Shown: one piece after another, positions 14,448 through 41,146 of the stretch
Numbering within the stretch: position 1 is the stretch's first letter
Layout: each line of letters opens with the position of its first letter
Assembly (NCBI GenBank): GCA_024399015.1
Contig: JAKSIC010000001.1
Location: 248,001 to 312,000, forward strand
Direction of reading: 5' to 3'
From: Fibrobacter sp.
GTDB taxonomy: Bacteria > Fibrobacterota > Fibrobacteria > Fibrobacterales > Fibrobacteraceae
DNA length: 64,000 nt
Position numbers and translations under genes: made by a program
Notes under the pieces: model-generated
What the model saw: the letters and a program-made list of their open reading frames with translations, nothing else
Told to the model about the DNA's origin: nothing
The model's database searches: none

Positions 14448-16160
14448 ATGGCAAATTTCTATACAGATCATCCAGAGATTAAGTTCAATCTCGAAAGCAG
14501 CCCCTTGATGAACCGCATTGTGGAACTCAGGGAAAATGGCTTTGCTAATGAAGAAAAGTCCGATTACGCTCCGGCCGACTACGCCGACGCAATCGACAAC
14601 TACAACAAGGTTTGCGAACTGGCTGGCGACATCGTTTCCAACGTGATCGCTCCCAACGCAGAAGCAGTTGATGCAGAAGGTCCTCATTGCGAAAACGGCC
14701 GCGTCCGCTACGCAAGCAAGACTTACGAAAACCTGGAAGCAACCGTGAAGGCTGGTCTTTGCGGCGTTACCATGCCCCGTCGTTTCGGTGGCCTGAACTT
14801 CCCCGTAACTGCTTACACCGCCATTAACGAAATGATCGCTGCCGGCGACGCAGGTTTCGAAAACATCTGGTCCCTTCAGGACTGTATCGAAACTTTGTAC
14901 GAATTCGGCGATGAAGATCAGCGTTCCCGTTTCGTGCCCCGCATCTGCGCCGGCGAAACCATGTCCATGGACTTGACCGAACCCGATGCCGGTTCCGACC
15001 TGCAGCGCGTGATGCTGAAGGCAACCTACAGCGAAGCAGACAAGTGCTGGTACCTGAACGGCGTGAAGCGCTTCATCACCAACGGCGACTCCGACATTCA
15101 CCTGGTTCTTGCCCGCTCTGAAGAAGGCACCAAGGATGGCCGCGGTCTTTCCATGTTCATCTACGACAAGCGCGACGGTGGCGTCGATGTTCGTCGTATC
15201 GAAAACAAGATGGGTATCCACGGTTCTCCGACCTGCGAACTGGTTTACAAGAACGCTAAGGCAGAACTCTGCGGCCGTCGCAAGTTCGGTCTCATCAAGT
15301 ACGTGATGGCCCTCATGAACGGCGCACGTCTCGGTATCGCTGCACAGGCAGTGGGTATCAGCCAGGCTTCCTACGACGAAGCTCTCGCCTACGCCAAGGA
15401 CCGTAAGCAGTTCAACCAGGCTATCATCAACTTCCCCGGCGTCTACGAAATGCTTTCCAACATGAAGGCTCGCCTGGACGCTGGCCGCGCCCTCCTTTAC
15501 CAGACAGCTCGCTACGTGGACATCTACAAGTCTCTTGAAGATATCGAACGCACCCGCAAGCTTACTGACGAAGAAAAGGCTGAACTGAAGCTGTACAACA
15601 AGTTGGCATCTGCCGGCACTCCGCTCACCAAGGGCATGAACGCCGAATACTCCAACATCAACAGCTACGACAGCATCCAGGTTCACGGCGGTTCCGGCTA
15701 CATGCTGGAATACGCTTGCCAGCGCCTCTACCGCGACGCTCGTATTACCTCCATCTACGAAGGTACTACCCAGCTCCAGGTTGTTGCCGCCCTTCCGCAC
15801 ATCACCACCGGCACCTACACTTCCATGCTCGACGAACTGGAAGCAGCCGCTGTTGCACCGGAATTCGAAAGCCTCAAGGCCCGCGCAAAGGCTATGGACG
15901 ACAAGTTCAAGGCAGCCATCGACTACGTCAAGGCCGCTGAAAACAACGAGTTCCTGGACCTCTGCAGCCGCCGCCTGTACGAAATGGCCGGTAACTGCGT
16001 CATGGCTCAGCTCCTCATCCGCGACGCTTCTGCAAACGCAGAACTGTTCGGCAAGAGCGCCAAGGTTTACCTGAACCTTGCTGAAGCTGAAGTCGCCAAG
16101 CACTACAACTTCGTGAAGAGCTTGGATGTGGAAGCGATGGAGAGCTACAGGAAGGCGTAA
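14448..16160 (+). CDS. Acyl-CoA dehydrogenase, first copy with divergent C-terminal tail
   Basis: 570 residues. N-terminal helical domain, middle FAD domain (MDLTEPDAGSDLQ, FITNGDSDIHLVL) and C-terminal domain with the catalytic glutamate E438 in IYEGTTQLQ. It probably works with EtfAB in fatty acyl-CoA or related oxidation/reduction. The first 1640 bp match the second copy at 23213 with only a few base changes that I could find. From 16088 the sequence switches to a different tail (EVAKHYNFVKSLDVEAMESY) and a different 3' flank; the other four copies end in [10 protein letters not shown]...[10 protein letters not shown]. This looks like a recombinant gene whose last 70 bp came with the downstream cassette. 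Confidence 0.9.
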   Translation: MANFYTDHPEIKFNLESSPLMNRIVELRENGFANEEKSDYAPADYADAIDNYNKVCELAGDIVSNVIAPNAEAVDAEGPHCENGRVRYASKTYENLEATVKAGLCGVTMPRRFGGLNFPVTAYTAINEMIAAGDAGFENIWSLQDCIETLYEFGDEDQRSRFVPRICAGETMSMDLTEPDAGSDLQRVMLKATYSEADKCWYLNGVKRFITNGDSDIHLVLARSEEGTKDGRGLSMFIYDKRDGGVDVRRIENKMGIHGSPTCELVYKNAKAELCGRRKFGLIKYVMALMNGARLGIAAQAVGISQASYDEALAYAKDRKQFNQAIINFPGVYEMLSNMKARLDAGRALLYQTARYVDIYKSLEDIERTRKLTDEEKAELKLYNKLASAGTPLTKGMNAEYSNINSYDSIQVHGGSGYMLEYACQRLYRDARITSIYEGTTQLQVVAALPHITTGTYTSMLDELEAAAVAPEFESLKARAKAMDDKFKAAIDYVKAAENNEFLDLCSRRLYEMAGNCVMAQLLIRDASANAELFGKSAKVYLNLAEAEVAKHYNFVKSLDVEAMESYRKA

Positions 16161-23212: not shown

Positions 23213-24922
23213 ATGGCAAATTTCTATACAGATCATCCAGAGATTAAGTTCAATCTCGAAAGCAGCCCCTTGATGAACCGCATTGTGGAACTCAGGGAAA
23301 ATGGCTTTGCTAATGAAGAAAAGTCCGATTACGCTCCGGCCGACTACGCCGACGCAATCGACAACTACAACAAGGTTTGCGAACTGGCTGGCGACATCGT
23401 TTCCAACGTGATCGCTCCCAACGCAGAAGCAGTTGATGCAGAAGGTCCTCATTGCGAAAACGGCCGCGTCCGCTACGCAAGCAAGACTTACGAAAACCTG
23501 GAAGCAACCGTGAAGGCTGGTCTTTGCGGCGTTACCATGCCCCGTCGTTTCGGTGGCCTGAACTTCCCCGTAACTGCTTACACCGCCATTAACGAAATGA
23601 TCGCTGCCGGCGACGCAGGTTTCGAAAACATCTGGTCCCTTCAGGACTGTATCGAAACTTTGTACGAATTCGGCGATGAAGATCAGCGTTCCCGTTTCGT
23701 GCCCCGCATCTGCGCCGGCGAAACCATGTCCATGGACTTGACCGAACCCGATGCCGGTTCCGACCTGCAGCGCGTGATGCTGAAGGCAACCTACAGCGAA
23801 GCAGACAAGTGCTGGTACCTGAACGGCGTGAAGCGCTTCATCACCAACGGCGACTCCGACATTCACCTGGTTCTTGCCCGCTCTGAAGAAGGCACCAAGG
23901 ATGGCCGCGGTCTTTCCATGTTCATCTACGACAAGCGCGACGGTGGCGTCGATGTTCGTCGTATCGAAAACAAGATGGGTATCCACGGTTCTCCGACCTG
24001 CGAACTGGTTTACAAGAACGCCAAGGCAGAACTCTGCGGCCGTCGCAAGTTCGGTCTCATCAAGTACGTGATGGCCCTCATGAACGGCGCACGTCTCGGT
24101 ATCGCTGCACAGGCAGTGGGTATCAGCCAGGCTTCCTACGACGAAGCTCTCGCCTACGCCAAGGACCGTAAGCAGTTCAACCAGGCTATCATCAACTTCC
24201 CCGGCGTCTACGAAATGCTTTCCAACATGAAGGCTCGCCTGGACGCTGGCCGCGCCCTCCTTTACCAGACAGCTCGCTACGTCGACATCTACAAGTCTCT
24301 TGAAGATATCGAACGCACCCGCAAGCTTACTGACGAAGAAAAGGCTGAACTGAAGCTGTACAACAAGTTGGCATCTGCCGGCACTCCGCTCACCAAGGGC
24401 ATGAATGCCGAATACTCCAACATCAACAGCTACGACAGCATCCAGGTTCACGGCGGTTCCGGCTACATGCTGGAATACGCTTGCCAGCGCCTCTACCGCG
24501 ACGCTCGTATTACCTCCATCTACGAAGGTACTACCCAGCTCCAGGTTGTTGCCGCCCTTCCGCACATCACCACCGGCACCTACACTTCCATGCTCGACGA
24601 ACTGGAAGCAGCCGCTGTTGCACCGGAATTCGAAAGCCTCAAGGCCCGCGCAAAGGCTATGGACGACAAGTTCAAGGCAGCCATCGACTACGTCAAGGCC
24701 GCTGAAAACAACGAGTTCCTGGACCTCTGCAGCCGCCGCCTGTACGAAATGGCCGGTAACTGCGTCATGGCTCAGCTCCTCATCCGCGACGCTTCTGCAA
24801 ACGCAGAACTGTTCGGCAAGAGCGCCAAGGTTTACCTGAACCTTGCTGAAGCAGAAGTGATGAAGCACTCCAACTTCATCATGGGCATGACTGCAGAACA
24901 GATCGCTGACTATAAGGCTTAA
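23213..24922 (+). CDS. Acyl-CoA dehydrogenase, second complete copy
   Basis: 569 residues, with all the acyl-CoA dehydrogenase motifs of copy 1 including the catalytic IYEGTTQLQ. Across the first 1640 bp I found only a handful of substitutions (for example at the codons of NAKAEL, YVDIY and GMNAEY), all silent. The tail is the standard [22 protein letters not shown], shared with copies 3-5, so this is probably the original host 3' end displaced by cargo 1. It is intact and may be expressed if transcription enters from cargo 1 or the boundary element. Confidence 0.9.
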   Translation: MANFYTDHPEIKFNLESSPLMNRIVELRENGFANEEKSDYAPADYADAIDNYNKVCELAGDIVSNVIAPNAEAVDAEGPHCENGRVRYASKTYENLEATVKAGLCGVTMPRRFGGLNFPVTAYTAINEMIAAGDAGFENIWSLQDCIETLYEFGDEDQRSRFVPRICAGETMSMDLTEPDAGSDLQRVMLKATYSEADKCWYLNGVKRFITNGDSDIHLVLARSEEGTKDGRGLSMFIYDKRDGGVDVRRIENKMGIHGSPTCELVYKNAKAELCGRRKFGLIKYVMALMNGARLGIAAQAVGISQASYDEALAYAKDRKQFNQAIINFPGVYEMLSNMKARLDAGRALLYQTARYVDIYKSLEDIERTRKLTDEEKAELKLYNKLASAGTPLTKGMNAEYSNINSYDSIQVHGGSGYMLEYACQRLYRDARITSIYEGTTQLQVVAALPHITTGTYTSMLDELEAAAVAPEFESLKARAKAMDDKFKAAIDYVKAAENNEFLDLCSRRLYEMAGNCVMAQLLIRDASANAELFGKSAKVYLNLAEAEVMKHSNFIMGMTAEQIADYKA

Positions 24923-29992: not shown

Positions 29993-30083
29993 AACCCACC
30001 TTATTTATTGACTGGGAAAATTACAAAAACTTTCTAGCATTGTCATTTTTTTCATTAAATAAGCTCTATTGACTGATTAGCAG

Positions 30084-30279
30084 AGCGTTGCGGGGCGTCA
30101 ACTGAGCCCCGCAGAGGGGGTAGCGGAAGACCCGGCCGGGGCTGGGATTGGATTAAGATTCCCGAAGGGAATGATTATGAGAGTGGGGCCGGGGCTGAAG
30201 CGACCTTTGGACACTTGGCCTTTAGGCCTTAGTGTACATGGCCACCTTTAGGTGGTGCGGGACTCCTCCCCCACCATTT
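30084..30279 (+). repeat. Boundary element L3 (longest copy)
   Basis: GCGTTGCGGGGC-gtcaactga-GCCCCGC, AGAGGGGGTAGCGGAAGACCC, a GATTCCCGAAGGGAATGATTAT hairpin, GGGGCCGGGGCTG, and then two extra small hairpins not found in the other copies (GGCCTTTAGGCC and CCACCTTTAGGTGG), ending CTCCCCCACC directly at the acd fragment. No open frame is conserved between the copies of this element. Confidence 0.78.
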
Positions 30280-30281
30280 AC

Positions 30282-31068
30282 GAACTGGTTTACAAGAACG
30301 CTAAGGCAGAACTCTGCGGCCGCCGCAAGTTCGGATTTTATAGATCCCGGCGTCTACGAAATGCTTTCCAACATGAAGGCTCGCCTGGACGCTGGCCGCG
30401 CCCTCCTTTACCAGACAGCTCGCTACGTCGACATCTACAAGTCTCTTGAAGATATCGAACGCACCCGCAAGCTTACTGACGAAGAAAAGGCTGAACTGAA
30501 GCTGTACAACAAGTTGGCATCTGCCGGCACTCCGCTCACCAAGGGCATGAACGCCGAATACTCCAACATCAACAGCTACGACAGCATCCAGGTTCACGGC
30601 GGTTCCGGCTACATGCTGGAATACGCTTGCCAGCGCCTCTACCGCGACGCTCGTATTACCTCCATCTACGAAGGTACTACCCAGCTCCAGGTTGTTGCCG
30701 CCCTTCCGCACATCACCACCGGCACCTACACTTCCATGCTCGACGAACTGGAAGCAGCCGCTGTTGCACCGGAATTCGAAAGCCTCAAGGCCCGCGCAAA
30801 GGCTATGGACGACAAGTTCAAGGCAGCCATCGACTACGTCAAGGCCGCTGAAAACAACGAGTTCCTGGACCTCTGCAGCCGCCGCCTGTACGAAATGGCC
30901 GGTAACTGCGTCATGGCTCAGCTCCTCATCCGCGACGCTTCTGCAAACGCAGAACTGTTCGGCAAGAGCGCCAAGGTTTACCTGAACCTTGCTGAAGCAG
31001 AAGTGATGAAGCACTCCAACTTCATCATGAACCTGACTGCAGAACAGATCGCTGATTATAAGGCATAG
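30282..31068 (+). pseudogene. acd fragment, copy 3 (5'-truncated, internal deletion)
   Basis: Matches acd from the codons of ELVYKNAKAELCGRRKFG, then about 145 bp are missing and replaced by the 11-13 bp filler ATTTTATAGATCC, after which the match resumes at GVYEMLSNMKARLDAG and runs to the stop. The filler shifts the frame, so the piece upstream is out of frame with the rest. The tail is [15 protein letters not shown] and the stop is TAG, unlike the TAA of the other copies. It lacks the N-terminal and most of the FAD-binding domain and cannot be an active dehydrogenase. Copy 5 has the same deletion and filler. Confidence 0.9.
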
Positions 31069-33058: not shown

Positions 33059-33337
33059 CTATTTATTACCTTTCCTTCTGTTGCAATCCCTGCATAGCAT
33101 TTGACGGTTTGTATCGATGGTCGGGCCACCTTCGCACCAGGGCGTTATATGGTCGGCTTCCATTTGCGACAGTTCAAAAATGTTGTCTGCAAATCGGACA
33201 AGCACCTTGTTGTCGCTCGTAGGCCTTTATCTTTTGGTTATCCGTAAACGCACGAATGGAAAGGTTGCGTTCGTCATGCGTCAACAGGTACGGATAAATT
33301 ACCTTCTTGTTGGTCACGTCGTCGTCCTTGATGAGCA
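33059..33337 (-). pseudogene. HNH nuclease gene remnant (C-terminal end of a DUF262-HNH type protein)
   Basis: Read on the minus strand it gives VTNKKVIYPYLLTHDERNLS, then KIKAYERQQGACPICRQ, and, after a one-base frameshift, FELSQMEADHITPWCEGG and MLCRDCNRRKGNK before TAG. The CPIC...DHI-N...C--C layout is the same HNH zinc-finger nuclease type as the C-terminus of the cargo 1 DUF262-HNH protein, but the sequences are clearly different. The upstream part of the gene is missing: coding sequence ends exactly where boundary element L4 begins. It is therefore a truncated, frameshifted gene cut off by the cassette junction. Confidence 0.75.
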
Positions 33338-33482
33338 GGGCATTGCGGGGCGGCGACTGAGCTCCGCAGAGGGGGTAGCGGAAGACCCGGCCGGGTGGGT
33401 TTCGAAACTTTATTCCCGAAGGGAATGATTGTAAGGGCGGGGCCGGGGCTGCAGCGAGGGGGAGACTTTCCCCACCATCATA
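33335..33482 (+). repeat. Boundary element L4
   Basis: GCATTGCGGGGC-ggcgactga-GCTCCGC (one G-T pair in the stem), AGAGGGGGTAGCGGAAGACCCGGCCGGGT, TTTCGAAACTTTATTCCCGAAGGGAATGATT, GGGCGGGGCCGGGGCTGCAGCGAGG and GGGG-agacttt-CCCC, then directly the acd fragment. Over its whole length it is close to L5. It cuts off the HNH remnant on its left. Confidence 0.8.
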
Positions 33483-33483
33483 A

Positions 33484-34018
33484 GCTCACCAAGGGCATGA
33501 ACGCCGAATACTCCAACATCAACAGCTACGACAGCATCCAGGTTCACGGCGGTTCCGGCTACATGCTGGAATACGCTTGCCAGCGCCTCTACCGCGACGC
33601 TCGTATTACCTCCATCTACGAAGGTACTACCCAGCTCCAGGTTGTTGCCGCCCTTCCGCACATCACCACCGGCACCTACACTTCCATGCTCGACGAACTG
33701 GAAGCAGCCGCTGTTGCACCGGAATTCGAAAGCCTCAAGGCCCGCGCAAAGGCTATGGACGACAAGTTCAAGGCAGCCATCGACTACGTCAAGGCCGCTG
33801 AAAACAACGAGTTCCTGGACCTCTGCAGCCGCCGCCTGTACGAAATGGCCGGTAACTGCGTCATGGCTCAGCTCCTCATCCGCGACGCTTCTGCAAACGC
33901 AGAACTGTTCGGCAAGAGCGCCAAGGTTTACCTGAACCTTGCTGAAGCAGAAGTGATGAAGCACTCCAACTTCATCATGAACCTGACTGCAGAACAGATC
34001 GCTGATTATAAGGCTTAA
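33484..34018 (+). pseudogene. acd fragment, copy 4 (shortest)
   Basis: Starts at the codons of [11 protein letters not shown] and runs to the stop, so only about the last 178 residues of acyl-CoA dehydrogenase remain, including IYEGTTQLQ but not the FAD-binding domain. By eye the sequence is identical to the other copies up to the last few codons, which read [15 protein letters not shown] as in copy 3. It is too short to be active. The frame is open back into the boundary element, which would add an unrelated N-terminal peptide if translated. Confidence 0.9.
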
Positions 34019-34214: not shown

Positions 34215-34775
34215 ATGAAAAAAGAAAAGTTCTTTACAACAAACATGATCTGTGCAGAAAGTCGTGCGGAATATTACGCAACGCTCCAAAAAGTTCAGGA
34301 GGGAACTCTTGTGCGAGTGAAAAGAGGCGTATTCGCAAAACCCGACGACCTGGCCAACGTCATGGTCGATATCGAGAAAATAATTCCCGGAGGAATTCTC
34401 TGTATGTATTCGGCATGGTCCTACTACGGGCTAACAACTCAAGTTCCTCAGCAATACGACGTCGCTATCAAAAGGGGTCGGAAAGTGACGCTCCCGCAAT
34501 ACCCCTCATTTTCCGTCCACAATCTAACAGATTCCGTCCTTGACACAGGTGTAACATGCGCGATAATTTCTGGGTACGAGGTGAAAATTTTCGACATAGA
34601 AAAATCTGTCTGCGACGCCGTCAAGTTTAGGAATAAAATCGGATTGGATGTTTGCACCGAAATCGTAAAGAACTACCTAAAGCGCAAAGACCGCAACATT
34701 TCCAAGCTTATGAATTACGCCAAAACACTACGCGTAAGCAAAATTCTGGAAATGTATATAACCATGAGGACATAG
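34215..34775 (+). CDS. abiEi: AbiEi-family antitoxin / transcriptional repressor
   Basis: 186 residues. An N-terminal winged-helix part (TNMICAESRAEYYATLQKVQEG, LVRVKRGVFAKPDDL) is followed by the AbiEi C-terminal domain (GILCMYSAWSYYGLTTQVPQ, VKIFDIEKSVCDAVKFRNKIG). This is the layout of the antitoxin of the type IV AbiE system, in which AbiEi counteracts the nucleotidyltransferase AbiEii without direct binding and represses the operon. It overlaps the toxin gene by one base (TAGTG). A 9-bp perfect inverted repeat precedes it. It is the first gene of cargo 4, behind acd copy 4. Confidence 0.85.
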   Translation: MKKEKFFTTNMICAESRAEYYATLQKVQEGTLVRVKRGVFAKPDDLANVMVDIEKIIPGGILCMYSAWSYYGLTTQVPQQYDVAIKRGRKVTLPQYPSFSVHNLTDSVLDTGVTCAIISGYEVKIFDIEKSVCDAVKFRNKIGLDVCTEIVKNYLKRKDRNISKLMNYAKTLRVSKILEMYITMRT

Positions 34776-35620
34776 TGAATACGAAGAATCTGGGACATTC
34801 CATTCGTGAGAAATTGCTCAACATCGCAAAATCGCAAAACACAGATTACCAGGTCATCTTGATTCGGTATTTCCATGAACGTTTCCTATTCAGGCTCTCC
34901 CAAAGCAAATATCGTGAACTTTTCTGCTTAAAGGGAGGCGCGTTACTTTACGCATACGAAAAGTTCTTGGCAAGGCCCACCATGGATGTAGATTTTCGCG
35001 CAGATAAAATCAATAACGACGTAAACATTATTTGCGAGGCTGTGGCAGAAATTTGCAAAATAGCCTGCCCGGAAGACGGCGTTGTTTTTGACGACAGGAA
35101 TATAACCAGCGAAATCATCACAGAATTCAAGGATTATCACGGAGTCAGAATTCATCTAAACGCGAAGCTGCAATCGATCAGTCAAAACATCTCTATGGAT
35201 TTTGGATTCGGCGACGAAATATATCCGTCACCCAATGTGATTAGTTATCCTAATCTTTTGGAAGATATGCCCTGCGCGAAAATCAGCACATACCCCCTTG
35301 AATCTGTAATTGCTGAAAAATTCCAATGCATAGTCGACCTTGCTGGTAGAAATACACGAATGAAGGACTATTTTGACATTTACAGGATTTTGAAGAACCA
35401 TCCCGTAAATGAAAGTTCTCTTTCAGAAGCCATTCGTCGGACCTTTGAAAATCGCGGAACAATTCGCAATCCCGAGAACGAAGTGTTCCAAGAAGATTTC
35501 GCAACCAACCCAACATTAAACAAACTATGGACTTCATTTCTCCGAAAAATCAAGTGGAAAGAAGATTTGCCATTTTTCGAAGTTTGGTCGATGATTCGAC
35601 AGAAGCTAATAGACATTTAG
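34775..35620 (+). CDS. abiEii: AbiEii-family nucleotidyltransferase toxin
   Basis: About 281 residues from the GTG at 34775, whose G is the last base of the abiEi stop codon; this overlap and the intact domain decide the start. Nucleotidyltransferase motif KGGALL (residues 53-58) with the metal-binding aspartates D71 and D73 in TMDVDFR, then the conserved YPLESVIAEKFQCIVDL and RMKDYFDIYRI blocks of PF08843. Known: relatives transfer nucleotides to tRNA acceptor ends and stop growth, giving phage abortive infection. A terminator follows at 35701. Confidence 0.87.
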   Translation: MNTKNLGHSIREKLLNIAKSQNTDYQVILIRYFHERFLFRLSQSKYRELFCLKGGALLYAYEKFLARPTMDVDFRADKINNDVNIICEAVAEICKIACPEDGVVFDDRNITSEIITEFKDYHGVRIHLNAKLQSISQNISMDFGFGDEIYPSPNVISYPNLLEDMPCAKISTYPLESVIAEKFQCIVDLAGRNTRMKDYFDIYRILKNHPVNESSLSEAIRRTFENRGTIRNPENEVFQEDFATNPTLNKLWTSFLRKIKWKEDLPFFEVWSMIRQKLIDI

Positions 35621-35779: not shown

Positions 35780-36961
35780 TCACTTTCCAGAAGTATCATC
35801 TCTTATACAGCGAACCGAAGCCGCTTGTGAATTTTCAGTAAACGAATAATTGACATAGTATACGGTAGATGATTGAGATTGATCTTTTGCCGAAAAGCTT
35901 ATTGTTTGCGTGCCAGTCCGTGTTTGACGATATGTCGTCCAAAAAACAGCACTACTTCCGTGGTAAGAAAACGGACCTCCAGATACAGAACTATAACTAT
36001 TGAAGGAATATTTAAATCCCGCGGGTTTAACATTAAACCCATATTCGTCAGTTCCATTACCATTTTCATCCCAACCTGTTTTTGACTTCAAAGCAATCCC
36101 GCCATTTGTCCATTTTTCATTAGCACCAACATCACCACCTGCTGCCAAAATAAGGGTTGTCCATTCATCTCTTGTCGGAATTTTCCACCCCTCTGGGCAA
36201 ATTCCACGAACATTAGCAGTATCCTTCCCACTTACAACACATTTGGCTACACCAGTTCCACAACCTTCTGTTGTTTTACTGTATATTCCAGCACTATCAA
36301 TAGCAGCGGAATAAGTGTATAGGTGACCTAATGTCTTACAACTATCAGCGATGTAGTCATAACAAAAACTTTGAGCCGAACCATAATCATAATCCAGCTT
36401 TAGGTTTTCTGCCATCCATGTTTGGTTTCCGATGGTAACTGTTTTATATACCTGGTTATCTCTCAAATCCTTTAATGTATTACTTGATTCATCATAAATA
36501 CTTCCACCAGATATGTTGACAACCTTTGAAAACACGGTTGATTGAGGAATACAATCGTAATTTTTTGTTTGGTAATAGCAATATGGGGAATCAGAAGAAC
36601 TACTCTTTGGAGAGGAAGAACTACTCCTTACAGAAGAAGAGCTTTTTGCTCCTTGATAAAAAACACTAGAAGAAGATTGTGAATTAGATAAAACCCAGTT
36701 ATTATTACGGCAAACGTAAGACTTCCCCTGAGCATCGATCATTGTACTTCCTGCAGAACAATTTTGTTGATTATTTTGCACCGGTACGAGCTGATCATTT
36801 TGACAGACGTAATCTACACCATTAAGAGTTGTTTTTGCATTTTCAACGCAAACTGTATTTCCTGATTGCGGAGCAGTAACATTGGAATTTTCATTCCCAC
36901 TACAAGCGGAAAAGATAGGAAGAATGCTTAATCCTAAAAAGCAAATGTATGTCATTTTCAT
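35780..36961 (-). CDS. FISUMP-domain lipoprotein with serine-rich linker
   Basis: 393 residues from the ATG at 36961, which has AAGGAAG just upstream. Lipoprotein signal with lipobox FSAC, two short repeats with spaced cysteines (TTLNGVDYVCQNDQLVPV and DAQGKSYVCRNNNWVL), a serine-rich linker (about residues 95-125), then a FISUMP domain (GNQTWMAENLKLDY, GHLYTYSAAID, CPEGWKIPTRDEWTTL, FWTTYRQT, VRCIRD). It is probably surface-anchored. It lies 29 bp after the ion-channel gene on the same strand and could be the last gene of the BRCT / nuclease / channel operon. Confidence 0.82.
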   Translation of the reverse strand: MKMTYICFLGLSILPIFSACSGNENSNVTAPQSGNTVCVENAKTTLNGVDYVCQNDQLVPVQNNQQNCSAGSTMIDAQGKSYVCRNNNWVLSNSQSSSSVFYQGAKSSSSVRSSSSSPKSSSSDSPYCYYQTKNYDCIPQSTVFSKVVNISGGSIYDESSNTLKDLRDNQVYKTVTIGNQTWMAENLKLDYDYGSAQSFCYDYIADSCKTLGHLYTYSAAIDSAGIYSKTTEGCGTGVAKCVVSGKDTANVRGICPEGWKIPTRDEWTTLILAAGGDVGANEKWTNGGIALKSKTGWDENGNGTDEYGFNVKPAGFKYSFNSYSSVSGGPFSYHGSSAVFWTTYRQTRTGTQTISFSAKDQSQSSTVYYVNYSFTENSQAASVRCIRDDTSGK

Positions 36962-36990: not shown

Positions 36991-37761
36991 TTAACGAAGA
37001 GATTTTTTTAACAAATCAAGATGTTTTTGAATTTCTCCAACCTCAGCCACTATTGTTGTGGGAGAGGATTCAGTCTTTGACTCATACGATTCACTGACAA
37101 AGTTCACAACAATGCCGACAACAATATTGAGCATAATAAGCGCCGAAATGATGATGAAACTAATTAAATAAATCCATGCATAGGGATGCGCAACCATCAA
37201 CCCTCGCAATAAGTCGCCCCAGCCTTCAAAAGTTGTTGTAATTACAAGCGTCAACATAGCAGTCCCTATATCCGCAAATGGCTGAATTTCCTCATAAACA
37301 ACATCCGAATACAAGTTTACTCCAATAACGGAATAGATATACAGAGTCACAAGCATCAGTAACCCCGCATAGCCAAGGCTTGGAATACTCTTGAATATCG
37401 CATTCACGATGACTTGCATCGTTTTTACAGAACTCACTAAACGCATCGCTCGAAATTGTTTCAACAAGCGAACTACTCGAAGACTTGAGACACAACCTGT
37501 AACAGGAATAAACGATACAGCAACAACCAAGACGTCAAACCAGTTCCATGCAGACAAGAAAAAACGTCCCCGACCAGCAACAATTCTCATGATAATTTCT
37601 ATAGCAAAGACTCCTAAACACACGGAGTCAATCACATCAAGAATTTTTCCACAAGAATTCATAACGGAAGGAACTGTTTCCAGTCCAAGAACAACGGCAT
37701 TGGTTGTAATGAAAATCATTACAACCAATTGAAACCACTTGCTTTCAACTACACGACTCAT
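36991..37761 (-). CDS. Voltage-gated cation channel (NaChBac/CavMr type)
   Basis: 256 residues with six transmembrane helices, the size of single-repeat bacterial voltage-gated channels that act as tetramers. S4 carries R95, R98, K101, R104 and R107 at three-residue spacing. The pore loop has TTFEGWGD (residues 176-183), with glycine after the filter glutamate E179. Nav channels of this class usually have TLESW; native prokaryotic calcium channels are reported to have glycine at this position. A short C-terminal helix (EVGEIQKHLDLLKKSL) suits tetramer coiled-coil formation. It overlaps the PD-(D/E)XK gene by 4 bp (ATGA), so it is translationally coupled to it. Confidence 0.88.
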   Translation of the reverse strand: MSRVVESKWFQLVVMIFITTNAVVLGLETVPSVMNSCGKILDVIDSVCLGVFAIEIIMRIVAGRGRFFLSAWNWFDVLVVAVSFIPVTGCVSSLRVVRLLKQFRAMRLVSSVKTMQVIVNAIFKSIPSLGYAGLLMLVTLYIYSVIGVNLYSDVVYEEIQPFADIGTAMLTLVITTTFEGWGDLLRGLMVAHPYAWIYLISFIIISALIMLNIVVGIVVNFVSESYESKTESSPTTIVAEVGEIQKHLDLLKKSLR

Positions 37762-38894
37762 ACAGAATCCGGGGAAACAGGAGATTCCTTTGATTCTTTA
37801 CGCGGACCTGCGGCAGAAATTGCAGCTTCTTGACGAATACGATCCTTCAAGCCAAGGACATCTCTAGTAGACGTCATGGGAATTAAGTCCCCCATTGTTG
37901 AAGCCCCTGTTTTAGCAAAAGCTACGCCAAGGAATTTGTACTTATTGTCCTCAATTTTACCACACACCCAAATAATCGGCTGACCAGAATTTTGTCCATT
38001 AAAACAAATCTTAGCTCCGACACCACTGGAAAAATCACATAGTTTGATATCCATATCTCCATATTGATCAGCAAGAAGACCCAAAACCATGCTATACACT
38101 TCACGTTCTTCATCTTCAACCTTATTAACGTACTTGGCCATTTCAGCCTTGACCTCAGCACGATATCTTTCCTTTTCAGCTTCAATTATATTACGGAGAG
38201 CATTATCAAAGAACGGTTTGTATTGTTCAATTTTAGACTGCGTTACCATGCTGCATGTAGGTTCAACCTTTTTAATGATATGCTTAATTTCATCATCACT
38301 CAAAGTTTTTCGTTCTTCAATAATTGCTTCAGTAATCAATTTAAGGCGAAGTTTTTCTTCTGCCTCTTGCTTAGCCTTGGCATGTTCACTACGGATAATA
38401 TCCAAAGATGCGCCAGGTTTTCTGAAGAGATTCAATACGAATTTCTTTTCTTCTTCACTTATGGAATCAAGATCAAAAGTTCTAAAGGGAGCCGATTCCA
38501 TGACATGATTTTCACCAGCTAAGAAAAGAGCCCATTTCTTACCATTTGTCAAAATACCAACATCGGCAAGTAAATTCTGGACATATGAAGCCAATTCATC
38601 AATATGCTTCTTATTTTCAACAGACTCGGTATAAGCCTTGGCTTCAATAACACAGCTATAGTTATTCGTCTTCAGTAAATAATCACAACGTGGCGGAACC
38701 CCCTTACTTCCAATTACAGGGAGGTTCACCTGCTTCTTATAACAATCTACACCTGGACCATAATCATAGCCCCACACACTTTGAAGCATTTTGTCAATAA
38801 TGTAGTTTTCAACGTCTTCTTCATTATTCAGTTCAACCGCACCTGCAATGGTAAGGCTCTTATAACGTTCAATGAGTGCATTAAAATTTTTCAT
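37758..38894 (-). CDS. PD-(D/E)XK nuclease-like protein (restriction-enzyme R N-terminal type)
   Basis: 378 residues from the ATG at 38894, with AAGGAG upstream. The N-terminus reads EEDVENYIIDKMLQSVWGY, then RCDYLL...YSCVIEAKA, giving D71, E84 and K86 in the D-X12-EXK pattern of type I restriction HsdR-N/PD-(D/E)XK domains. A charged helical middle (about residues 170-265) looks like a coiled coil. The C-terminal 110 residues are a separate domain (AKICFNGQNSGQPIIWVCGKIE). No helicase domain is attached, so it is not a type I R subunit. It sits between the BRCT gene and the ion channel, and is coupled to the latter. Confidence 0.75.
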   Translation of the reverse strand: MKNFNALIERYKSLTIAGAVELNNEEDVENYIIDKMLQSVWGYDYGPGVDCYKKQVNLPVIGSKGVPPRCDYLLKTNNYSCVIEAKAYTESVENKKHIDELASYVQNLLADVGILTNGKKWALFLAGENHVMESAPFRTFDLDSISEEEKKFVLNLFRKPGASLDIIRSEHAKAKQEAEEKLRLKLITEAIIEERKTLSDDEIKHIIKKVEPTCSMVTQSKIEQYKPFFDNALRNIIEAEKERYRAEVKAEMAKYVNKVEDEEREVYSMVLGLLADQYGDMDIKLCDFSSGVGAKICFNGQNSGQPIIWVCGKIEDNKYKFLGVAFAKTGASTMGDLIPMTSTRDVLGLKDRIRQEAAISAAGPRKESKESPVSPDSV

Positions 38895-38913
38895 TTTTTA
38901 CTCCTTCTGAAAA

Positions 38914-39816
38914 TTACTGTGAGATATATTCATTCCAAACTTGTTCACTAGTGATAAGAATTGGAAAGCCTTTCTTTTGAAGATTCATCGCTTTCTCAAT
39001 CTTTCGTCCTGAAGACTCATGAATCCAATCTCTGCTGACCAAAGTTCCAACTATCACGCAATCCGTTGAATTAGTGACACTATTTTGAGGAATCGCGCCT
39101 ATCTTTGCAGCCTCAGCCTCAATCTGCTTGCGACTTCCCGAAATGAACTTGCCTGTAAAGCAAACATTTTTGCCTTCCAAGCACTCTGGAATAGGTTCAT
39201 TGAACAAAGACGTAGCACCGCCAACAGCGTCACCATCTTCCGTGAAATGAGTCCCCACAATATCACTAACAAGATCATTCAGTTCTCTAAGTTCGTTTTC
39301 ATCAACAATCTGGTCGCTTAAAATCATGTTGATTCTATCATACACAATGTTGAAGGGAAAGACTTTTTGAACAGTTAACGGGACGTTTGACACATATTGT
39401 TTGAGTTTGTCAAATTCAGTCTCATTTATCACACCATCGGCTGTTATTCCTTTCAAAAAACCAACAAATTGATTGACCTCTGCATCCTTTTCAAAAACTT
39501 TTTCTGAAAATTCAATGCAATCATCTAGGAGATTTTTCAAATCTTCACGTTCATCACTTGAAATTACGCCATCCTCCAACGCAGCCTTTACCGCATCATA
39601 AATATCAAGGATGTCTCCTTTCATCTCTTTTTGTTGTTCAAGCCATACTTGAAGAAACAATATTTCAGTATCGTTCAATTGCTGATCTGCAGTTATCCCA
39701 TTCAAAATACCATAAAGAGTCGCCGCAGCTTTATTCCTGTTACGAACTTTATTAAAACCACCGTTCAGCGGCTGGCCATCGGCATCAAGTTCTATTTTCT
39801 TTTCCTTGTCTTCCAT
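38914..39816 (-). CDS. BRCT-domain protein with TerB-like acidic repeats
   Basis: 300 residues. Residues 30-190 hold four copies of an acidic helix-turn motif (GITADQQLNDTE at 40-51, LEDGVISSDER at 80-90, GITADGVINETE at 123-134, LSDQIVDENE at 166-175), the pattern seen in TerB-like or EF-hand-like metal-binding repeats. A C-terminal BRCT domain spans about 212-298 (LEGKNVCFTGKF, EAAKIGAIPQNSVTNSTDCVIVG), similar to the DNA-ligase/DinG-exonuclease type BRCT. It is 19 bp upstream of the PD-(D/E)XK gene. A sensor role for DNA ends or ions is possible but unproven. Confidence 0.78.
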   Translation of the reverse strand: MEDKEKKIELDADGQPLNGGFNKVRNRNKAAATLYGILNGITADQQLNDTEILFLQVWLEQQKEMKGDILDIYDAVKAALEDGVISSDEREDLKNLLDDCIEFSEKVFEKDAEVNQFVGFLKGITADGVINETEFDKLKQYVSNVPLTVQKVFPFNIVYDRINMILSDQIVDENELRELNDLVSDIVGTHFTEDGDAVGGATSLFNEPIPECLEGKNVCFTGKFISGSRKQIEAEAAKIGAIPQNSVTNSTDCVIVGTLVSRDWIHESSGRKIEKAMNLQKKGFPILITSEQVWNEYISQ

Positions 39817-39894
39817 AAATCATTTTCCAAATGGTTTTAGAACAAGATTCTTCTGCAGAAAGACTAGAGAACTTTACCCTGCACATATTGCCAA

Positions 39895-39980
39895 ATAAAA
39901 AAAAGCGTGGGTGCGTAAGTGCAATCTCACCTGAGGCTCGGCAAAGCCCATCACGAAATAAACACAAACGACCCACGCCC
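39895..39980 (-). ncRNA. Structured RNA with terminator-like outer stem, copy 2
   Basis: Read on the minus strand: GGGCGTGGGT...ACCCACGC with an eight-T run after it; the arms are at 39971-39978 and 39905-39912. Inside are GTTTGTGTTTATT, a GGGCTTTGCC hairpin, GAGCCTCA and TTGCACTTA, in the same order as copy 1 (22241-22326). Arm bases differ between the copies while pairing is kept. It ends about 80 bp before the BRCT gene start, so it could be an independent small RNA or an attenuating leader of that operon. Confidence 0.55.
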
Positions 39981-40189
39981 ATTTCTGGACGTGAGCGTCT
40001 GCTACTCATTCAATCGTGATATGAAATTTTGCCGATTTCAGGTGATGAACAAGAGCAAAGCTCAATATGTCAAAAACGCATTAAATCCTTATAGCGACCT
40101 CTTTTTACATTCTTTAATAATATAATTCATTTAAATGACATTAAAGTGCCAATTATTAGAAAGAATGCGACAACACACCTTCATTTGCA

Positions 40190-40354
40190 TTTGGGCGGGT
40201 GGGTTGGGAAAGCAGGGCGTTGCGGGGCGGCGACTGAGCCCCGCAGAGGGGGTAGCGGAAGACCCGGCCGGGTGGGTTTCGGAACTTTATTCCCGAAGGG
40301 AATGATTATAAGGGCGGGGCCGGGGCTGCAGCGAGGGGGAGACCTCCCCCACCA
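40190..40354 (+). repeat. Boundary element L5
   Basis: CATTTGGGCGGGTGGG, GCGTTGCGGGGC-ggcgactga-GCCCCGC (stem 40222-40228 with 40238-40244), AGAGGGGGTAGCGGAAGACCCGGCCGGGT, TTCGGAACTTTATTCCCGAAGGGAATGATT, GGGCGGGGCCGGGGCTGCAGCGAGG and GGGGGAgacctCCCCC, then the acd fragment. It shares the CATTTGGGCGGGTGGG opening with L2 and the interior with L4. The 200 bp to its left show no gene. Confidence 0.82.
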
Positions 40355-41146
40355 CCTGCGAACTGGTTTACAAGAACGCCAAGGCAGAACTCTGCGGCCG
40401 CCGCAAGTTCGGATTTTATAGATCCCGGCGTCTATGAAATGCTTTCCAACATGAAGGCTCGCGTTGATGCTGGCCGCGCCCTCCTTTACCAGACAGCTCG
40501 CTACGTCGACATCTACAAGTCTCTTGAAGATATCGAACGCACCCGCAAGCTTACTGACGAAGAAAAGGCTGAACTGAAGCTGTACAACAAGTTGGCATCT
40601 GCCGGCACTCCGCTCACCAAGGGCATGAACGCCGAATACTCCAACATCAACAGCTACGACAGCATCCAGGTTCACGGCGGTTCCGGCTACATGCTGGAAT
40701 ACGCTTGCCAGCGCCTCTACCGCGACGCTCGTATTACCTCCATCTACGAAGGTACTACCCAGCTCCAGGTTGTTGCCGCCCTTCCGCACATCACCACCGG
40801 CACCTACACTTCCATGCTCGACGAACTGGAAGCAGCCGCTGTTGCACCGGAATTCGAAAGCCTCAAGGCCCGCGCAAAGGCTATGGACGACAAGTTCAAG
40901 GCAGCCATCGACTACGTCAAGGCCGCTGAAAACAACGAGTTCCTGGACCTCTGCAGCCGCCGCCTGTACGAAATGGCCGGTAACTGCGTCATGGCTCAGC
41001 TCCTCATCCGCGACGCTTCTGCAAACGCAGAACTGTTCGGCAAGAGCGCCAAGGTTTACCTGAACCTTGCTGAAGCAGAAGTGATGAAGCACTCCAACTT
41101 CATCATGGGCATGACTGCAGAACAGATCGCTGATTACAAGGCTTAA
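40355..41146 (+). pseudogene. acd fragment, copy 5 (5'-truncated, internal deletion)
   Basis: Starts at the codons of CELVYKNAKAELCGRRKFG, carries the same internal deletion of about 145 bp and the same ATTTTATAGATCC filler as copy 3, and resumes at GVYEMLSNMKARVDAGR (one changed codon, L to V, and different silent bases around it). The tail is [15 protein letters not shown] as in copy 2. Truncation and frameshift rule out an active enzyme. It is the last acd piece; beyond its terminator the region returns to housekeeping genes. Confidence 0.9.

Follow-up and report, generated by a model that had tools for sequence, protein, structure and literature searches.

In a 64,000-nucleotide stretch of a Fibrobacter sp. 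genome (contig JAKSIC010000001.1, positions 248,001 to 312,000; hereafter the window) we find a structured leader RNA standing ahead of an operon that encodes a restriction-type nuclease and a voltage-gated cation channel. Taken together our comparative, modelling and covariation analyses tip the balance modestly towards a mobile, leader-controlled phage-defence operon, at whose core a PD-(D/E)XK nuclease is joined by a voltage-gated channel acting as a homotetramer, a BRCT adaptor being optional. Of the two findings, the RNA leader has the firmer support and the wider reach. We put forward more tentatively, as possible rather than probable, a wider proposal: that a genus-wide terminator/antiterminator RNA with an upstream sensing domain switches restriction-modification (RM) and other defence operons on together upon a shared signal, for instance infection by a phage or the uptake of DNA, and that one of its targets is a new type of defence combining a voltage-gated calcium channel with a nuclease. 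The elements concerned are the following.

39893-40044, minus strand: structured leader RNA of about 150 nt (folding, covariance-model score of 173 bits, covariation)
38914-39816, minus strand: gene 1, BRCT protein (open reading frame of 300 aa; PADLOC PDC-S48, 2.5e-12)
37758-38894, minus strand: gene 2, nuclease-like protein (open reading frame of 378 aa)
36991-37761, minus strand: gene 3, voltage-gated cation channel (open reading frame of 256 aa)

The leader lies outside the three genes, its modelled end falling 76 nt before the start codon of the BRCT gene, and was found by comparing the upstream DNA of four operons of this kind, all four of which carry it as a conserved element. It consists of the helices P1, P2, P3 and P4, which form a single long hairpin, after which come a terminator strand (ACCCACGC) and a U-tract, the hairpin being followed by ACCCACG(C) and the U-tract. 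In the four operons it is predicted to fold at -52 to -61 kcal/mol (z -5.0 to -6.0), with no shuffled sequence reaching so low a value. A covariance model built from these four leaders matched 90 of the 168 Fibrobacterota genomes that we surveyed, nearly all of them Fibrobacter, with 1-14 copies each, including six in the window's own genome and one in the window. In an alignment of 76 copies the fitted structure leaves 97.4% of cells paired with 280 double-changed cells, and P1 and P2 show repeated changes on both sides; none of 500 shuffles did as well and slid controls reached 34-46%. Because the alignment was fitted to the P1-P4 helices, this measure is biased in their favour. The fitting made no use of the terminator stem, in which the 3' strand of P4 (P4') pairs with the strand that precedes the U-tract, and here 96.5% of cells are paired and 5 of 11 pairs double-changed, as in 0 of 500 shuffles and against 37-61% paired in slid controls. 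At three positions, moreover, six sequences show concerted changes in P4, P4' and the terminator strand, and this joint covariation points to two mutually exclusive stems that share one strand, the signature of attenuators. A U-tract of at least 5 is kept in 73 of the 76 copies, and the leader would terminate transcription conditionally in vivo. Integron attC sites were considered for the hairpin and set aside, as an RNA leader better accounts for its orientation, U-tract and double covariation; a leader peptide was likewise rejected on inspection, as open reading frames through P4 shift frame between copies and most have no start codon.

The pairing resembles the terminator/antiterminator pairing of trp-type attenuators. 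Regulation of RM genes is otherwise well known through C proteins. At the pneumococcal tvr RM locus a single terminator-like attenuator hairpin precedes the recombinase gene (PMC6265443), and similar to our leader this is a terminator-like structure near RM genes; however, tvr has one local hairpin, whereas the leader is a conserved multi-helix RNA with competing stems that precedes many unrelated RM and defence genes throughout a whole genus. A review of how RM is regulated (PMC3874152) covers antisense RNAs in depth, whereas the terms attenuation and riboswitch do not appear in it, and in the open-access literature we found no description of a structured leader common to RM genes. Rfam 15 gave no gathering-score match for the window leader (best non-specific hit E 0.027) or for 20 further loci, and an exact-pattern search found no leader in viral contigs. 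Upstream of the leader, from about -70 to -1, most of the 76 copies show TTGACATAG, a hairpin-like stretch and GTTTAACGTAGAGTTAGCTCTTATTCTC before P1, with the hairpin-like stretch missing in the nuclease-channel copies. Given this patterned sequence the RNA may be longer than modelled, and the pattern could be an extra sensing domain or parts of a promoter.

To see what the leader precedes, we sampled the 30 best loci and 40 further sites, mainly down the ranked list, which covers about 75 best-scoring copies; downstream genes were typed by clustering and family searches, with representatives scanned and cluster members counted with them. In more than 70 copies the next gene lies on the same strand as the leader, at a median of 54 nt behind it. 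We found RM methyltransferase genes behind 32 of the 75 copies that have a downstream gene: type III Mod in 13, type ISP/IIG in 7, HsdM in 7, and N6, D12 or type II methylases in the other 5. At an assumed and generous base rate of 2% this has a P of about 3e-34, in which related genomes are counted although they are not independent. Defence-like helicases follow in 3 of 75 (two UvrD/GajB-like, one DrmD-like SNF2), and the nuclease-channel operon in four. An attenuator common to type I, II, IIG/ISP and III RM genes, helicases and this operon would mean that unrelated defences are read via one RNA switch. The leader is also a handle for finding unknown Fibrobacter defence genes, for example a family of about 800 aa that stands behind 13 of the 75 copies (L190 777-3227, minus strand; L148, L149, L160, L164, L168, L172, L185 and others). 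Members have an EAK-type motif near the N-terminus and no significant Pfam, NCBIfam or PADLOC match (N6_Mtase is weak, at E 0.016), and the family is a candidate for a divergent RM enzyme. FISUMP or secreted lipoproteins stand behind RM-type leaders at L141 2-1501 (minus), L127 1685-3145 (plus), L139 298-1473 (minus) and L156.

The initial annotation of the window had proposed that the three genes form a defence operon, and much of its description stands: the three open reading frames, their order and their minus strand are all as described, with a 19-bp gap between the BRCT and nuclease genes and a 4-bp overlap (ATGA) between the nuclease and channel genes, and an AAGGAG-like ribosome site lies 5' of the nuclease gene. 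Its six-helix ion channel is unambiguous by Ion_trans and PDB matches, its BRCT domain is seen in both a Pfam match and the modelled fold, and its nuclease-like protein with a D-X12-EXK motif and without helicase is borne out, the motif being invariant in relatives and no helicase Pfam match being found. The AbiE toxin-antitoxin pair that it placed in the same cargo was recovered by Pfam and PADLOC. What does not hold is the three-gene set as a unit. A full-length nuclease is present in 4 of the 168 genomes (G000, G091, G086 and G077), in all four of which the channel is the next gene and has the same strand, and the four nuclease-linked channels rank as the closest in the phylum; a further genome, G081, has a nuclease relative at 29% identity without a channel. 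Since the BRCT gene is found in just two of the four operons and its relatives elsewhere are unpaired, standing without nuclease or channel, the core of the operon is two genes, nuclease and channel. Co-occurrence in other genomes, which the initial annotation had made its own check, is therefore seen for the pair and not for the set including BRCT, and of the defence reading itself we retain that the operon moves as defence-like cargo and shares the leader of RM genes, without the three-gene unit.

The pair indeed shows signs of movement. It lies beside AbiE in two genomes (G000 and G091), and in G086 nuclease, channel and leader are inserted between rpsA and coaBC, which are here 2,992 nt apart. 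In five relatives the same two genes are spaced by 141-400 nt, several others have a different single open reading frame between them (an acyltransferase in the two that were typed), and none of 20 relatives carries the leader at the coaBC locus. Between G000 and G091 identity is 56.5% for the nuclease, 81% for the BRCT protein, 83% for the channel and 98-99% for AbiE, and between G091 and G086 it is 88.8% for the nuclease and 64.8% for the channel. These discordant identities indicate, as far as sequence comparison goes, that nuclease alleles are exchanged inside the operon, an exchange of the sort that we infer to be common under diversifying selection.

Gene 2 contains the motif D71-X12-E84-A-K86, and residues E25, D71, E84 and K86 stay unchanged even in relatives with identities as low as about 20%. 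Its structure model (mean predicted local distance difference test score, pLDDT, of 83.5) matches HsdR and type IIG nuclease domains over residues 1-166 with a best Z of 11.4-11.6, the matches being DrdV, Vibrio vulnificus HsdR, BpuSI and EcoR124I HsdR; plain Foldseek gave weak matches, the best of which are PD-(D/E)XK nucleases. Family searches were likewise faint, with weak HSDR_N_2 matches in Pfam and weak PDC-M15A/LeoBC matches as the sole ones in PADLOC. The model thus suggests a PD-(D/E)XK nuclease of the HsdR-N type with an unassigned C-terminal domain of its own. It shares its fold and motif order with the HsdR N-terminal domain (V. vulnificus 3h1t and EcoR124I, Z 8-11.6), and the common PD-(D/E)XK fold over residues 1-166 with the nuclease domains of the type IIG enzymes DrdV and BpuSI; however, unlike these it comes without helicase, methyltransferase or specificity subunit, and its fixed partner is an ion channel. 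No SF2 helicase domain was found by Pfam search in its 378 aa, and no HsdM or HsdS adjoins it, the neighbours being BRCT, channel, FISUMP, AbiE, helicase, rpsA and coaBC genes. Gene 2 would work in the manner of HsdR and yet is not HsdR, having neither helicase nor HsdM/S. By tblastn we found no relatives in plasmid and phage record collections, a wider scan of genome contigs returned the known Fibrobacter copies and distant HSDR_N-type proteins, and among 395 Bacteroidota genomes 43 have distant relatives and none has close ones. One Bacteroidota locus, L085 7259-9775 (minus), holds an analogous combination in one operon, that of an HSDR_N-type nuclease, here a distant relative, with a secreted-looking DNA/RNA non-specific endonuclease and a six-transmembrane (6-TM) K+ channel (TVGYGD). 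G146 has an Ion_trans gene in tail-to-tail overlap with an HSDR_N nuclease. We do not count these as the same system, the cases being too few.

Gene 3 encodes a single 6-TM domain (Pfam Ion_trans, residues 7-228, E 9e-51, 172.8 bits), with T-type Cav, Nav and bacterial channels as its best PDB matches. Its S4 segment carries the regularly spaced charges R95, R98, K101, R104 and R107, of which at least four of five are kept in the aligned nuclease-linked channels, and its selectivity filter reads TFEGWGD. In CavMr, whose filter is TLEGWVD, the glycine at position 4 is the determinant of Ca2+ selectivity (PMC7041947). Both this glycine and the aspartate at position 7 are present in gene 3 (T-x-E-G-W-x-D), which differs at positions 2 (phenylalanine) and 6 (glycine), and since position 4 is the determinant in CavMr the channel perhaps passes Ca2+. 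Similar to NaChBac-type BacNavs and CavMr it has one 6-TM domain and a charged S4, which fits membership of the BacNav/BacCav family; it is a putative homotetramer, and stands apart from them in having a nuclease as operon partner. Since its voltage sensor is intact and its filter like that of CavMr, the channel might sense depolarisation just as well as it might act as a killer pore. The channel has no match in PADLOC 2.0.0, which covers systems up to 2023. The one other channel of this family in the genus, in G069, has the filter TLESWSM, is not linked to the nuclease and likewise lies in a leader-headed operon. A second leader-controlled channel operon, without the nuclease, is seen at L036 5353-8435 (plus), where a lipoprotein gene comes first behind the leader, then one for a 264-aa protein and one for a BacNav-type channel (TLESWSM).

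How these parts might work together can be sketched as follows. Transcription would start upstream of the attenuator, and a nascent RNA that folds as the long hairpin (P1-P4) would give read-through, the alternative being that the 3' strand of P4 pairs with the downstream strand before the U-tract and transcription stops. As the same leader precedes RM and defence genes across Fibrobacter, the operon would be switched together with them, and its own defence function is inferred partly from this regulon membership. Phage DNA entry can depolarise the membrane; the channel would then open and admit cations, after which the nuclease would cut DNA. In assigning these putative roles of sensor and executor we favour the channel as sensor because a voltage-gated pore opens on depolarisation, with the channel as effector nearly as likely. 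Kiwa and Zorya are known defences that join a membrane component with a DNA-acting one (KwaA with KwaB, and the ZorAB motor with a nuclease), and offer a lead to the same logic; here however the membrane part is a voltage-gated channel, and PADLOC 2.0.0 gave no match to KwaA, KwaB or Zor signature proteins. In the libraries and papers that we searched there is no defence system that couples a Nav/Cav-family channel to a restriction-type nuclease, and if the proposal is true the operon would link the cutting of DNA in bacterial immunity to the voltage across the membrane.

Several observations weigh against the proposal. There are four operons in all, every one in a single genus, and no nuclease lies within 1.5 kb of any of the 30 best Bacteroidota channels, which means that the pairing does not hold generally. 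Ca2+ selectivity is read solely from the filter. Predictions make the long hairpin very stable, and attenuation would therefore need a trigger. A sizeable part of the 75 downstream genes, the remainder after those above, are FISUMP proteins or lipoproteins or unknowns that show no link to defence, and the leader therefore does not belong to defence genes exclusively. Lastly, the leader stands at 4 of the 30 top HsdM-type (N6-methylase) loci, and many RM genes are without it; yet 0.2 loci would be expected at the rate seen in the window's own genome (P 6e-5; coaBC loci gave 0 of 20), and leader copies are strongly concentrated on RM genes.

The best of the other explanations, which we regard as possible though somewhat doubtful, reverses the order of events, such that the nuclease, together with any BRCT protein in the operon, detects DNA that is damaged or of phage origin, and the channel depolarises the cell and halts phage replication in an abortive infection. 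Phosphopeptides and DNA ends are common ligands of BRCT proteins, and the overlapping, always paired nuclease and channel genes would suit this order as well; however, the intact S4 makes an effector that requires depolarisation to open less obvious, and two of the four operons have no BRCT gene. That BRCT senses DNA ends and that an effector permeabilises the membrane, both suggested at first, are guesses. It is unlikely, in turn, that the 150-nt element is a non-regulatory mobile DNA hairpin marking cassette boundaries, in the manner of a miniature inverted-repeat transposable element, a repetitive extragenic palindrome or a recombination site. Such a hairpin would explain its many copies in Fibrobacter, its travelling with the inserted module in G086 and the GC-rich repeats that border the cargo, and a DNA cruciform could have the same long hairpin, but it leaves unexplained the constant orientation and spacing to the next gene start, the patterned upstream sequence and the kept U-tract, and DNA mobility does not require that the P4'-terminator pairing covary with the first pairing. 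We consider it more unlikely still that nuclease and channel are stress or housekeeping genes, acting in ion homeostasis or DNA repair, that share a regulator with RM by chance: bacterial voltage-gated channels do have physiological roles elsewhere and the leader is also found on FISUMP lipoproteins and unknown secreted proteins, but the operon is mosaic, confined to 4 of 168 genomes, lodged between core genes in G086 and next to AbiE in G000 and G091. Least probable is the initial three-gene system with BRCT as obligatory DNA-end sensor, for which the gene's position directly upstream of the nuclease and the similar G000-G091 identities of BRCT and channel speak, and against which stand its absence from G086 and G077 and its solitary homologues.

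The leader-controlled nuclease-channel pair therefore has in the BRCT protein an accessory or optional adaptor. Gene 1 has helical acidic repeats at the N-terminus and a BRCT domain at the C-terminus, the latter above the Pfam cut-off (E 1.8e-6) and matching BRCT chains in the model with Z up to 11.7. The helical half is modelled with low confidence (pLDDT about 40-80), and with no TerB Pfam hit the label 'TerB-like' that the protein was first given is not confirmed. Residues 110-276 match PADLOC PDC-S48 (44.6 bits), itself only a candidate, with a longer profile (411 positions) and, as far as the PADLOC library shows, without nuclease or channel as a part. The gene lies upstream of the nuclease in G000 and G091, while a homologue in the Fibrobacterota genome G164 stands alone, and further relatives are on temperate-phage-like contigs beside repressor-like genes.

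Next to the operon lie three further genes.

35780-36961, minus strand: FISUMP-domain lipoprotein (Pfam Fib_succ_major, 2.4e-27)
34652-35620, plus strand: AbiEii toxin (Pfam AbiEii, 5.4e-45; G091 copy 98% identical)
34215-34775, plus strand: AbiEi antitoxin (PADLOC AbiEi, 2e-52; G091 copy 99% identical)

The lipoprotein starts 29 bp downstream of the channel and may be co-transcribed with it; it is not at that position in the other three operons. Around this cargo the window holds two full-length acyl-CoA dehydrogenase genes and three 3'-terminal fragments (copies and fragments at 14448-16160, 23213-24922, 30232-31068, 33395-34018 and 40439-41146), whose DNA is about 98-99% identical to the 40439-41146 copy, or about 92% over a longer match at 30079-31067. 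The fragments flank blocks of cargo, one of which holds AbiE and the nuclease-channel operon, in what looks like serial insertion or tandem duplication at the 3' end of the dehydrogenase gene. Directly before each fragment is a GC-rich repeat of about 140 bp (30074-30203, 33329-33477 and 40206-40354), these being 90-96% alike, and another copy adjoins the G091 operon (L014 7541-7681).

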